The notes under the pieces are model-generated. The model had not been told where the DNA came from. It searched no databases and was given only the letters and a program-made list of their open reading frames with translations. Shown here piece by piece: positions 32,595 through 38,507 of a stretch of 64,000 nt of DNA. A program made the position numbers and the translations under genes. Each line of letters begins with the position of its first letter. Position 1 is the stretch's first letter. The stretch comes from Neoakkermansia glycaniphila (GTDB lineage Bacteria; Verrucomicrobiota; Verrucomicrobiia; Verrucomicrobiales; Akkermansiaceae), in the NCBI RefSeq assembly GCF_001683795.1, contig NZ_LIGX01000001.1, forward strand, positions 62,001 to 126,000, given 5' to 3'.

Positions 32595-32797
32595 AAAAAA
32601 AGCTGCGCCACCTCTACCCAGAGGTGGCGCAGCTCTCTCTCTATGTAACTTCCATTTACCTGTGGAAGAGGGGGATGCCTTGCTCCTTCGCGGCACGACA
32701 GGAATTGCAAGCGCATGAAGCAGATGTTGCCCCGGCGAAGTAAAAACGTCAACAGAACAACAATTGAACCATTGGGATATTTTGCCCATCCGGAACA
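32595..32797 (-). ncRNA. Putative structured small RNA, copy A
   Basis: Read on the minus strand, a possible promoter (ATGTCA, 17 bases, TATTCT) at 32832-32804 is followed by an imperfect GC stem, a hairpin TTCCA/TGGAA around 32650-32667, a purine-pyrimidine run, and a 14-bp stem (AGCTGCGCCACCTC with its complement, 32601-32634). The last stem is followed by seven T residues, a textbook terminator. The central 45 bases are almost identical to copy B, while the terminal stem differs in sequence but keeps its pairing. Direction is inferred from the terminator; expression is not proven. Confidence 0.5.
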
Positions 32798-32803
32798 AAA
32801 CCT

Positions 32804-32832
32804 AGAATACGGATTATCAATCCGCATGACAT
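32804..32832 (-). promoter_or_regulatory. Weaker promoter with palindromic spacer in front of RNA copy A
   Basis: ATGTCA (32832-32827), 17 bases, TATTCT (32809-32804) on the minus strand. The spacer contains CGGATT-N3-AATCCG, the same palindrome type as in copy B. Confidence 0.45.
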
Positions 32833-32976
32833 ACCCATTTCACATTCGTCAGACATTCAGCGTCTTGATGCACTTATGAATAGATATACCGTGAAGGCAT
32901 CATGCACACAGATCAACCATGTAGCAACAGGAAGCATAAAAAATGAAGAAGTTGTATATTTCAGGATTTTATTATT

Positions 32977-33005
32977 GACAAACGGATTGATAATCCGTTA
33001 ATTTT
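32977..33005 (+). promoter_or_regulatory. Third palindrome with an upstream TTGACA on the plus strand
   Basis: TTGACA is followed by the palindrome ACGGATT-GAT-AATCCGT and then TTAATT with a 17-base spacer. The -10 match is poor, so this may be only an operator-like site. A further copy, ACGGATTT-AAAATCCG, is near 33455. Confidence 0.35.
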
Positions 33006-33109
33006 CATTAATCAGCACATCATAAATAATTATTTCACATCCTTTTTTCCTCTCTTTTTCAGCCCTTTTCTCCGCCACAAAAAATACCATCATCCGTTCT
33101 TCCTCTCCA

Positions 33110-33267
33110 ACAAGAAGTGCCACCCCCTTACGGAGGTGGCACTACTCTCTCTATGTAACTTCCATTTACCTGATGGAAGAGGGGGATGCCTTGCTGCCTT
33201 CTCGACAGGACAGGATACGCAAGCACAATAAATTCCACTTGTTGGCGTTCAGCTTTCAGATTTGGAA
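33110..33267 (-). ncRNA. Putative structured small RNA, copy B
   Basis: This is a second version of the element. On the minus strand a strong promoter (TTGACG, 17 bases, TAGAAT; 33302-33274) is followed by GTTCC at nearly the same distance as in copy A. Next come the conserved GGCATCCCCCTCTTCCA block with its hairpin (CTTCCAT/ATGGAAG) and a final stem AGTGCCACC/GGTGGCACT (33116-33143). The closing stem has no long T run. Base changes relative to copy A keep both stems, which argues for a functional RNA. Confidence 0.5.
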
Positions 33268-33273
33268 CGGCAT

Positions 33274-33302
33274 TATTCTACGGTTTTTAAATCCGTACGT
33301 CA
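33274..33302 (-). promoter_or_regulatory. Promoter with palindromic spacer in front of RNA copy B
   Basis: TTGACG (33302-33297) and TAGAAT (33279-33274) are separated by exactly 17 bases. The spacer is the inverted repeat TACGG-N-CCGTA, so a dimeric regulator could sit between the two promoter boxes. Confidence 0.6.
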
Positions 33303-33595
33303 ACCCTCAAATGAACATCTATCATTTATTAGTTACTATAAGCGCGTTACGTGGAATGAAAAAATATTATTGCACAGCGAAAACGGCTTTTGTGTACATG
33401 TACAAAAATACAATCATTTTAGTATTAATTAAATAAACATAAATGAAAATAAACGGATTTAAAATCCGCTTCTTATACTATACCGATTGCTGTTTCTCCT
33501 TATTTCAAAATTACCATTTTTTCGCATCTTTTCCCAGATTTTTTACAATTAATTTTCATATAAACAATTTTGCATCATTTTGTCATATTAATTGC

Positions 33596-34559: not shown

Positions 34560-35014
34560 TTACGCCATGCGGCGGCGGCGCAGCATCAGGCCAGCCAGGG
34601 ACAACAGGCCCAGAGTTGCCGTTGCAGGCTCGGGAACAGCGGCATTTTCCGCCTTGATGGCATCGGATACACGTCCCTTAGCCAAATAGCCTACCTGATC
34701 CTTCGTCAAAGCTCCGGAGAACAACGCCACCTCATCGTACATGGCTGTCGGCTTGCTACCCGAATCTCCGTTTCCAAGGGTGAACTGCGTCACATCCGCA
34801 TTGGCAATCGGTGTGCCGGTCCATTGTCCGGCCTGTTCGCCGTTCAGGAACAGAGTGGCTACTCCGTTCTGGTAGGTCAAGGCCATGTGGTTCCATACGT
34901 TCTGCGTAATCGGCGCCGTCGATTCCCCTCCATTGCCGATCAGGCCATTGCCGTACACGTTGTATTTATTGTTGCCGCCGGATTGCACATACAGATAATT
35001 GGTGTAACGCGCCA
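34560..35014 (-). pseudogene. 3' part of a LamG/PEP-CTERM surface protein, cut by the prophage
   Basis: About 151 codons remain. They encode the second half of a LamG/concanavalin-like domain (NYLYVQSGGNNKYNVYG, WNHMALTYQNGVATLFLNGEQAG, YDEVALFSGALTKDQVGYL), a linker, and a PEP-CTERM sorting tail (VPEPATATLGLLSLAGL, then RRRRMA) for exosortase processing. The homologous reading begins abruptly at 35014, where phage DNA starts with TG. Upstream codons of the same open frame are only a shadow of phage genes. The 5' part should lie at the other prophage end, outside the window. Confidence 0.85.
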
Positions 35015-35060
35015 TGAGGGTTTGGATGCGTTTGACATGTAGTTTGGATGTCGAGGCATT
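35015..35060. other. Prophage end with repeated transposase-site-like motifs
   Basis: The end begins TGAGG and holds GTTTGGATG twice, 22 bases apart, the layout of end-type binding sites in Mu-like elements. A target duplication cannot be checked because the other end is not in the window. Confidence 0.6.
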
Positions 35061-35067
35061 CATGGAT

Positions 35068-35100
35068 GAAAAAGGCACGTCCCGTGCATGGGGCGTGCCT
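35068..35100 (-). terminator. Terminator of the phage late operon
   Basis: AGGCACG (35073-35079) pairs with CGTGCCT (35094-35100), with inner CCC/GGG pairs and loop GTGCAT. Five T residues follow on the minus strand. It lies between the last tail gene and the prophage end. Confidence 0.85.
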
Positions 35101-35136
35101 GTGTTGTGCATGGGGGATGCACGGGGGATGCACGGG

Positions 35137-36102
35137 TTATCCGGTGTAGTCGACGGAGGTGTGGAGGGCGTAGGTCCAGGTGAGGGGGTCGAGGCTGGCG
35201 GTGGTGGTGATGGTGTGGCGCGGGTCGATGGCTTGCCAGCGGAGGATGACGGTGTCGTAGGTGGCGACGGCCGATGGGGCGAAGGCGGGGAGGATGATGT
35301 GTTCGCCGCTGTAGTGCTGGGTGGAGGCGATGCCGTCGATGTCCGCAATGTGGATGGCGGTTGATGGGAGGGTTGGGTCGAGGTCGGGGATGCCGATGTG
35401 TTCGCCTCCGAGGGGGCGCCATGGTTGGGTGCCGTCTGCATCCCAGGGGCCATCCATGAGTTCGCAGACTTTGCCGAAGCCTTCGACGGCGTGCTGGAGG
35501 ACGAGGAAGAGGCGGCCGCAGGTGATGCAGGCCCAGAGGCAGTAGGTGACGCCGTTTTGCCCGGTGTAGCCGTCCGGGTTGTACCAGGGGAGGGCCCATG
35601 TGTCGGCCATGATCCAGGGGAGGTCGCCGCGCCATTGTCCGTTGTGGCGGAGGTAGGCGTCGCGTTCGTAGAGGTCGCCGGGGACGAGGGTGCAGCCGCG
35701 GTAGGTGCCGGGGCTGACGTCCGAGGCGGTGGGGCCATCCAGTTCGGCACGGAGGATGCCGGGTTCTTCTTCCATGAGGTCGGGGATGGTGTGGTCGGGT
35801 GGCGGAGGCGGTTCCGGGAAGGCGATGTCGGTGATGCGGAGGTGGAGTTTGCCGCGCCAGTAGGCTCCGTGGAGGTAGCGGGAGGGTGCGGGGGTGTAGG
35901 TGCCGTTGCTGTTGTTGTGGTAGAGGGGGCATTCATCCATGACGATCCAGGCTTCGGGGTCGTCGATCTGGTCGATGCTGCCCCATGACGGAGGGAGGAG
36001 GATGCCGCCGAGGTGGTGCTGGGTGGCGGTGATGCCGTCGATGTCCGCGATGTGGATGGCGCGGTGTTGTTCGGTTTCGAGGAGGTCGGGGATGTCGCTC
36101 AT
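35137..36102 (-). CDS. Phage tail protein with internal duplication
   Basis: This last gene of the late operon encodes 321 residues. The block AIHIADIDGI-x-TQHH appears near the N-terminus (about residues 14-38) and again near 245-270 as AIHIADIDGIASTQHYSG. The copies are also close at DNA level, about 680 bases apart. The middle part (CLWACITCGRLFLVLQHAVEGFGKV) is a single compact region. The start overlaps the stop of the tail-tip gene as ATGA. Position suggests a tail-tip or receptor-binding part; no family was recognised. Confidence 0.7.
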   Translation of the reverse strand: MSDIPDLLETEQHRAIHIADIDGITATQHHLGGILLPPSWGSIDQIDDPEAWIVMDECPLYHNNSNGTYTPAPSRYLHGAYWRGKLHLRITDIAFPEPPPPPDHTIPDLMEEEPGILRAELDGPTASDVSPGTYRGCTLVPGDLYERDAYLRHNGQWRGDLPWIMADTWALPWYNPDGYTGQNGVTYCLWACITCGRLFLVLQHAVEGFGKVCELMDGPWDADGTQPWRPLGGEHIGIPDLDPTLPSTAIHIADIDGIASTQHYSGEHIILPAFAPSAVATYDTVILRWQAIDPRHTITTTASLDPLTWTYALHTSVDYTG

Positions 36103-38507
36103 TTCGGTTTCTTTTTGAGGGTCCACATCCAGCCGAGTGTGTTGTTTTTTTCGAGGACGTGGTAGTAGCCGTATTTCTGGCCGTCCGGGAGGAGGACGGG
36201 TTCGAGTTTCTGGGGCCGCGCACTGTCCGGCAGGGGGAGTTCTCCGCCATTCATCCACCATTGGCCGTTTTCGACGTAGACTTCGAAGGGTTTACGCCGT
36301 TCTCCGCCGCTGCTGCCGGTGTTGAGGGGCTGGAAGATGGGGGCGACGGGGTTGTCTTCTTTTTCGGTTTTGTCTGCGCCACCGCTTCCGCCGCTGTTTC
36401 CGGAAGAGGGTTGCTGGGCGGGGTCGAGGGCGGTGTCGCTGACGAGGGTTTGGTCTCGGAGGTCGGCGACGCGGTTGCGGTTGGTGTATTCATCGAAGTT
36501 GTAGGCGGCCCGAGTGCCGAGGGTGAGGGTGCAGTGTCCGGTTTTGAGGTCCCAGGAGACGTGTTGGACGGTGGTGTCCATGGTGTCCCACGGGGCGTAT
36601 CCGGAGCCGGTGATGCGGATGCGGTGGCCGGGGAGTTGCCAGGGGGTGGGCCAGAGGATGGGGCCGAGGCTGCCGTCGTACTGGAGGGCTCGCGTTTTGT
36701 CCCAGTAGTTGCGGATGAGGTCGGCCGGGATGTCGCTTTCGATTTCTTGCACTTTGTCGTGCGGGGTGAAGAAGATGCTTTCGTTTTCGCGGGCGGCGAG
36801 TTTGAGGGTGTAGATGCCGGGGGCGTAGGTGTGGGCGATTTGCTGTTGGGGTGCCCATTGCCGGGAGGCGGGGTGGACGGTGGCTGTGCCCTGGTTGATG
36901 CGGCCGGGGTCCATGGTGTAGGTGACGTGGCCGTCTCCCCAGAGGATGAAGCCGAGGGCGTCGAACCATTCGGTGGAGAGGGTGAGGAGGCCGCCTTCCG
37001 GTAGGTGGACGATGTAGTAGCGGTATTCGTATTTGCCGTGTTCTTTTTCTTCTTCCGGCGTCGAGTTTTGTTCCCATGCTTCGGGATCGGCGGCAGGGTC
37101 CCCGGAGGCGTCGCCGTAGTCGCCGCCGATGTAGCGTTTGTTGCCGGAGAGGTTGATGGCGATGACCCGGTAGGCGAGGGAGCGGGTGATGACTTTGCCG
37201 GCGCCGTCGGTGCCGTCGCCGCTGAAGAATTCGCGTACGCTGGCTTTGCGGGGGGCATCCGGGGTGCAGCAGACGCGTTGTTCGATGTTGGCGTAGCACC
37301 AGCGGATGCTGGGGAATTTGCGGGTGATGCTGCCGAGGATGAGTTCGTATTTCTGGCCGTCGATTTTGTAGTTGGCGGGCAGTATCCATGTTTCGACGCC
37401 GGTTTCGGGGTTTTCTTCGTGGAATTCGTCGGGCTGGCCTTCGTAGGTGATGTTGCACCATGTGGAGAATTTGACGTGGTCTTTGACCTGGGCGAGGAAG
37501 GGGAAGTGGTGTTTCCAGTATTTGTAGGCGGCCGTGTTTTTCGTCCATTCGTTTTCTTTGCCGTTGGGGTTGGCTTTCGGGAAGGGGATGCCTTTGAGTT
37601 CCATGACTTGGCGGGCGGCGGCGGCGGTGGCTGCATCCACGGGGCCGGAGGTTTCGGCCTTGCCGGGTTTGGAGAGTTCTTCGGCTTCTTCCTCTTCGCT
37701 CTTCTCCACAGTCTTTGTCCGAGTCACAGAGGGCAATGTGTAGACGAAGGCGTCCGGGACGTTGAGGTCGCCGCCTTCGGGGATGATTTTGACGATGGTT
37801 CCATCCGGGGCTTTGAGCGCAACCACCGGCGGCACAAGGTCGTGGCGGGGGGTGAGGTCGATGCCGCCCATGGCGCAGGTGCCGTAGGGGATGTCGATGA
37901 CGGGGAGGTCGAGGCTGTCTGCGATGACGAGGCGGGGGTGCGTGCCGCCGTAGTCCATCCAGGAGACGAGGCCGGGGCACCAGCGGGACATGGCTTCAAT
38001 CATCTGAGCGCAGGTGTTGGATCCGTTGGTGCCGATGGCTCCCGTGGTGCCTTTGGCGAGGATGTCGATGGTGGCGGGCATGTTCCGTGCGGGGCCTGCG
38101 GTGGCCTGGTCGAGGGCGGTGGCGAGGTCGGCACAGGCGCGGGCGGTGGTGGCGGTTTGGCCGATCTGGAGGTGGCGGCCATCCGACCGGGAGGGGTCGG
38201 CAGGCGGAGGCTGGTAGATGGAGCGGCCGAGGAGGTCGTAGGGGTCGGTCATTTCGACGGCGTAGTGGATGCTGCCGGCGGAGATTTTCGGCTGGGCTTT
38301 TTTGACGTATCCCAAAAAGACGAGGTCAGTACCCCGGTAGAGGCGTACCCAGTGGCCGTATTGCCATGGGACGGGGATGTCGGCGAGGTTATCCATCGCC
38401 CAGGCCATGCTGCAGGTTCCGGCGGCGAGGCTGGCGTAGGTGATGGTGCATTCGGTGAGTTTGTCCGGGCCAATGGCGGCGAGGTCGTAGCGGTGTTCGG
38501 TGGTCAT
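36099..38507 (-). CDS. Putative phage tail-tip/hub protein
   Basis: An 802-residue protein directly after the tape measure gene. The N-terminal 270 residues (CTITYASLAAGTCSMAWAM, GYVKKAQPKISAG, EMTDPYDLLGRSIY, RHDLVPPVVALKAPDG) have the beta-rich pattern of hub or baseplate proteins of the gp27/gp44 type. A charged K/E segment near residue 270-290 separates it from a long second half that ends in Pro/Gly-rich sequence. It is coupled by ATGA overlaps on both sides. The hub call is inferred mainly from position and general pattern. Confidence 0.6.
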   Translation of the reverse strand: MTTEHRYDLAAIGPDKLTECTITYASLAAGTCSMAWAMDNLADIPVPWQYGHWVRLYRGTDLVFLGYVKKAQPKISAGSIHYAVEMTDPYDLLGRSIYQPPPADPSRSDGRHLQIGQTATTARACADLATALDQATAGPARNMPATIDILAKGTTGAIGTNGSNTCAQMIEAMSRWCPGLVSWMDYGGTHPRLVIADSLDLPVIDIPYGTCAMGGIDLTPRHDLVPPVVALKAPDGTIVKIIPEGGDLNVPDAFVYTLPSVTRTKTVEKSEEEEAEELSKPGKAETSGPVDAATAAAARQVMELKGIPFPKANPNGKENEWTKNTAAYKYWKHHFPFLAQVKDHVKFSTWCNITYEGQPDEFHEENPETGVETWILPANYKIDGQKYELILGSITRKFPSIRWCYANIEQRVCCTPDAPRKASVREFFSGDGTDGAGKVITRSLAYRVIAINLSGNKRYIGGDYGDASGDPAADPEAWEQNSTPEEEKEHGKYEYRYYIVHLPEGGLLTLSTEWFDALGFILWGDGHVTYTMDPGRINQGTATVHPASRQWAPQQQIAHTYAPGIYTLKLAARENESIFFTPHDKVQEIESDIPADLIRNYWDKTRALQYDGSLGPILWPTPWQLPGHRIRITGSGYAPWDTMDTTVQHVSWDLKTGHCTLTLGTRAAYNFDEYTNRNRVADLRDQTLVSDTALDPAQQPSSGNSGGSGGADKTEKEDNPVAPIFQPLNTGSSGGERRKPFEVYVENGQWWMNGGELPLPDSARPQKLEPVLLPDGQKYGYYHVLEKNNTLGWMWTLKKKPK

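Follow-up and report, generated by a model that had tools for sequence, protein, structure and literature searches.

The intergenic region between rph and hpf in Neoakkermansia glycaniphila appears, on balance, to contain a tandem pair of phase-variable small RNA genes with an inverton in front of each, a reading of its sequence that we regard as moderately probable. The more specific proposal, that the two genes form a paralogous pair of trans-acting small RNAs varied independently by two promoter inversions, with four states and a joint target set, is advanced tentatively and with slightly less than even weight. The region belongs to a window of 64,000 nt, the whole stretch of DNA analyzed here (GCF_001683795.1, NZ_LIGX01000001.1, positions 62,001-126,000 of the forward strand), to which all coordinates below refer. 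The gap separating rph (RNase PH) from hpf (ribosome hibernation factor), both identified with Pfam, is AT-rich and about 1.1 kb long, and its minus strand carries two copies, A and B, of one element. Elsewhere in the window, an 802-aa open frame without a Pfam match at E≤0.001 (36099-38507, minus strand) adjoins a predicted PEP-CTERM/laminin-G-like protein at 34560-35936. Contigs C1 (1-127123) and C18 (38202-165324) of the source genome share 127 kb identically; this duplicate takes in the whole window, its ends perhaps excepted, and as assembly redundancy it inflates genome-wide counts. Both window invertons have the same orientation in C18 as in C1, and C18 was rejected as evidence for inversion because it is identical to C1 over the entire 127 kb.

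Copy A is predicted to yield a noncoding transcript of approximately 203 nt (32595-32797, minus strand), placed by its -10 box (32809-32804) and its terminator, and copy B one of approximately 161 nt (33108-33268, minus strand), placed in the same way by the -10 box at 33275-33280 and a terminator hairpin. The nearly identical central bases described in an earlier note on this DNA were recovered as a core, AGCAAGGCATCCCCCTCTTCCACAGGTAAATGGAAGTTACATAGAGAGAGA in copy A (32634-32684, minus strand), which aligns with positions 33144-33195 (minus strand) of copy B; 50 of 52 columns are identical (96%), including exact blocks of 28 and 22 nt. Identity falls to 70% in the 30 nt located 5′ of the core and to about 33% in the 5′ part of the copies, and the invertible segments of the two invertons align no better than shuffled sequences, so that the core stands far above background. 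A recent duplication of the whole RNA-plus-inverton unit was ruled out on the same shuffle-level alignment. Since the invertible segments no longer align and the core is nearly unchanged, the core RNA appears to be the part under selection. It consists of CAUCCCCCUC, a C-rich stretch that is largely single-stranded in predicted folds, followed by a CUUCCA/UGGAAG hairpin and then by a AGAGAGAG run leading into the terminator.

The terminator of copy A (32595-32633, minus strand), detected as an inverted repeat and by folding, matches the earlier description, with a 14-bp stem and a 4-nt loop (32602-32633) followed by seven T residues (32601-32595), and its fold is strong (z -6.1). That of copy B (33116-33143, minus strand) has a 12-bp stem and the tail TCTTGTT, a poorer and broken T-tract compared with the T7 of copy A. 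The covariation claimed for this final stem has a factual basis in three double changes after which both arms still pair, but it involves two sequences only and is not significant, since 56 of 500 shuffles do as well; the CTTCCA/TGGAAG stem shows no change between A and B.

The palindromes described earlier are indeed there, at 32809, 32982, 33280, and 33453. All four contain CGGATT..AATCCG (three exactly, one with one mismatch), and they pair up in inverted orientation as 32809/32982 and 33280/33453, 173 bp apart in each case. Inverton 1 comprises a left recombination site ACGGATTATCAATCCGC (32809-32825), a predicted invertible segment of 156 bp (32826-32981), and a right site ACGGATTGATAATCCGT (32982-32998); inverton 2 comprises a left site ACGGTTTTTAAATCCGT (33280-33296), a predicted invertible segment of the same length (33297-33452), and a right site ACGGATTTAAAATCCGC (33453-33469). 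Thus, the two palindromes that had been taken as additional copies to the right are present, not as extras but as the partner sites of inverted-repeat pairs. The central trinucleotide is matched as a reverse complement within each pair and differs between pairs, the two centres being GAT and TAA when read towards the RNA. By sequence, these palindromes are the known Akkermansia inverton recombination site, a repeat credited to Jiang et al. (2019) in two later papers (PMC13343947, PMC11892184). In A. muciniphila, both orientations of the cps1 inverton were detected by restriction digest and qPCR, tracking capsule production (PMC13343947), and an independent survey grouped together 39 invertons, including 32 from A. 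muciniphila, with a repeat close to the published Akkermansia motif (PMC11892184).

The positions of the promoter elements relative to these sites suggest opposite states for the two copies. The earlier proposal of -35 and -10 boxes 17 bases apart holds for copy B, where TTGACG (33303-33298, minus strand), at the end of the invertible segment and pointing at the RNA, is followed after 17 bp by the fixed -10 box TAGAAT (33275-33280, minus strand; 5/6 for each hexamer). For copy A as assembled the match is poorer, ATGTCA-17-TATTCT (4/6 and 4/6). In copy A, the -10 box that stays fixed is TATTCT (32804-32809, minus strand), 17 bp from the -35 position, and the perfect TTGACA of inverton 1 (32975-32980, plus strand) points outward, away from copy A, towards a poor outer hexamer, TTAATT. 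When inverton 1 is flipped in silico, copy A gains TTGACA-17-TATTCT, its -10 box remaining at 4/6, while flipping inverton 2 costs copy B its TTGACG-17-TAGAAT and leaves it with AAAATA. In the assembly, the B promoter is thus predicted to be ON and the A promoter OFF. Copy B combines a good promoter with a weak T-tract, and copy A a strong terminator with a promoter that is good only after the flip.

The same arrangement recurs throughout the genome. Allowing up to one mismatch, the palindrome RCGGATTNNNAATCCGY occurs 60 times, some of these sites being doubled by the C18/C1 127-kb repeat, compared to 0 for a reversed control. When the two sites of a pair were required to have the same central trinucleotide as reverse complement, at least 21 pairs were found among the sites listed, 131-269 bp apart from site start to site start, and the centres differ between most of them. 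A TTGAC-type hexamer (≥5/6) lies directly inside exactly one end in 20 of the 21 pairs examined, the remaining pair having TTGTCG. In this geometry, the recombination site is itself the promoter spacer, with the -35 box just inside one end of the segment and the -10 box outside, so that a flip would exchange a good -35 box for a poor one. Another Akkermansia genome (G059) has the same one-ended TTGAC arrangement in 15 of 18 pairs, and the combined patterns TTGAC-NN-CGGATTNNNAATCCG and TTGAC-NNN-CGGATTNNNAATCCG are recurrent across the genus, with 0 control matches. Together, the published motif, the inverted pairing, the matching centres, and the 21 pairs examined suggest that control in the window would be exerted via DNA inversion. 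Inspection of the open reading frame list by eye placed a protein start within approximately 100 bp of one or both flanks in 18 of the 19 non-window pairs, the nearby proteins usually having a signal-peptide-like N-terminus (also judged by eye); the window pairs differ from these 18 in leading to copies A and B.

About a dozen Akkermansia genomes, as well as genome G027, contain the TTGAC-coupled site at high frequency and most of the smaller genomes of the genus have next to none, so the inverton system seems to be patchily distributed. In G027 (loci L234 and L250-L278), the inverton cassette is a dispersed repeat with 40 TTGAC-coupled sites, nearly all identical (TTGACAGCGGATTCAAAATCCG), each with a partner GCGGATTTTGAATCCGC about 174 bp away; the interior is conserved, the flanks are unrelated, and the cassette resembles an inverton amplified in the manner of a MITE. 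At another locus of the source genome (C14:4862-5059), long, secreted-looking proteins start nearby on both sides of an inverton, and a flip there may replace one surface protein by the other.

The proposed mechanism builds on features directly visible in the sequence, namely paired sites whose centres match, the positions of the -35 and -10 boxes, the conserved core and the hairpins, and the fact that the two copies have no open reading frame in common. From these, we infer the inversion of the segments in this species, the production of the RNAs, and their mode of action. Acting on the 17-bp sites, a recombinase, probably a tyrosine enzyme, would invert the 156-bp segment, of which just one end has a -35 box (TTGAC); the RNA and its -10 box lie outside and would stay in place. 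One orientation would bring the -35 and -10 boxes together, allowing the RNA to be made, and the other would deprive the promoter of its good -35 box. The RNAs of A and B would end at their terminators. The source genome encodes six tyrosine recombinases scoring over the Pfam cut-off, and a Pfam search detected no serine recombinase in it; the odd length of the site would also suit the odd overlap of a tyrosine enzyme better than the 2-bp overlap of a serine enzyme. Site-specific recombinases generally need matching overlap sequences. Given this need and the different centres of invertons 1 and 2, the two switches should be independent of each other, and their separate flipping would produce four states. 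Once made, the RNAs would probably act in trans, CAUCCCCCUC base-pairing with G-rich, Shine-Dalgarno-like sites.

Searches for homologues and targets of the RNA were largely negative. Consistent with the earlier statement that no named RNA family with this structure was known, Rfam gave no match to copies A and B, whether at the gathering score or with E≤1. The earlier proposal was to be checked by whether related genomes conserve the stems, which was not borne out: DNA (59 genomes), 21-mer, and covariance-model searches found no homologue of the RNA in 75 other Akkermansia genomes. The 21-mer search, allowing up to three mismatches, gave scattered matches across the genus, and covariance-model matches in two genomes (G028 and G089) were rejected, as they look terminator-driven and their loci are without inverton sites. 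In collections of genome and viral contigs, some scans of which omitted near relatives of the source genome, an exact 19-mer had no match; an 18-mer had 15 matches in the genome contigs, in unrelated taxa and near chance level. No match to the RNA was found in the phages and plasmids scanned, and no other copy of the core was found in the source genome. The C-rich stretch could, by its sequence, pair with Shine-Dalgarno-like sites; when GGAAGAGGGGGATG was used in a target search, the inspected matches were mostly within open frames and none was convincing at a start.

A regulated pair of small RNAs, as originally suggested, is still the best reading of A and B, given the predicted promoters and terminators, the core, and the absence of a common frame; what does not survive is the implied protein bound to an operator-like palindrome. 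Operators for a dimeric repressor with a Fur-like regulon, as with the PrrF-type tandem small RNAs, would account for perfect palindromes serving as promoter spacers in many promoters genome-wide. Such operators have no need of a same-centre partner 131-269 bp away, however. The sites are arranged in inverted pairs whose variable centres match, one end of the pair mostly lacks a promoter, and the motif is already linked to demonstrated inversion. The operator reading was dropped on the strength of the genome-wide matched-centre pairs and the published inverton motif, and we consider it the least probable of all. Scarcely more credit is due to the idea that the copies encode short peptides. The frames of copy A are open through the core and those of copy B run to 20 and 36 codons, but A and B differ by indels (1, 1, and 2 nt) that disrupt every common frame, the copy A frames run on across the terminator, and none of the start codons inspected has a clear ribosome site. 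With no frame in common, both copies are noncoding by this sequence criterion.

A more serious, though still unlikely, alternative is that the copies are remnants: the invertons would once have driven surface-protein genes that have since been deleted, leaving behind a promoter, a leader or 3′ UTR, and a terminator, whose transcripts may be made yet have no function of their own. Such an origin would agree with the protein starts to which 18 of the 19 other pairs lead and with the failure to find the RNA in other species searched. It would also agree with the gene order in G027, the only genome among the 29 relatives' loci fetched around hpf in which rph lies within the flank; there, rph and hpf are divergent neighbours with no inverton between them. 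Against it stand a core that has remained 96% identical while its surroundings diverged to background, two terminator stems that pair despite changes on both sides, and the lack of any further core copy elsewhere in the genome. Less likely than such a remnant, and improbable overall, is a role as conditional leaders, in which the hairpins would attenuate transcription, and read-through out of A, or out of B via A, would phase-vary rph. Both copies are located upstream of rph on the same strand, and the C-rich core could, from a reading of the sequence, pair with part of the 3′ arm of the terminator. However, the copy A terminator is very strong, no gene lies between copy B and the next unit, phase variation would be unlikely to target a housekeeping exoribonuclease, and on visual reading rph may have its own promoter, located between 32595 and 32486.

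Surface genes of gut bacteria are known to be under inverton control. The predicted RNA genes share with the Akkermansia invertons the genus, the repeat itself, 17-bp repeats about 173 bp apart, and an AT-rich segment carrying a promoter element; they differ in that the output is a predicted noncoding RNA rather than a capsule or surface-protein gene, and inversion is here predicted from sequence. Pseudomonas PrrF1 and PrrF2 are tandem paralogous small RNAs under the Fur repressor. Like them, A and B are predicted to be neighbouring RNAs with a near-identical core and a candidate promoter and terminator each, whereas two independent inversions are proposed in place of Fur control, and no sequence relation is claimed. 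In Helicobacter pylori, which relies on variable simple repeats, the small RNA NikS phase-varies. NikS and RepG, the latter acting on a G-rich target that is a phase-variable repeat, likewise connect small RNAs with phase variation, but through simple repeats rather than promoter inversion, and again no sequence relation is claimed. The literature consulted on invertible promoters and small RNAs, a scope that took in a minority of subscription papers, contained no small RNA switched in this manner. The palindromes belong to a known kind of element, and the predicted noncoding output looks new.

If the proposal is correct, a noncoding output would allow one flip to alter many targets together, instead of single surface genes, and one clone would split into four regulatory states. 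Small RNA regulation would then be inherited but could also be reversed, in a genus of importance to the gut. The positional rule proposed here, with the -35 box in the segment, the recombination site as spacer, and the -10 box outside, would further allow ON and OFF states to be read from many Akkermansia assemblies.
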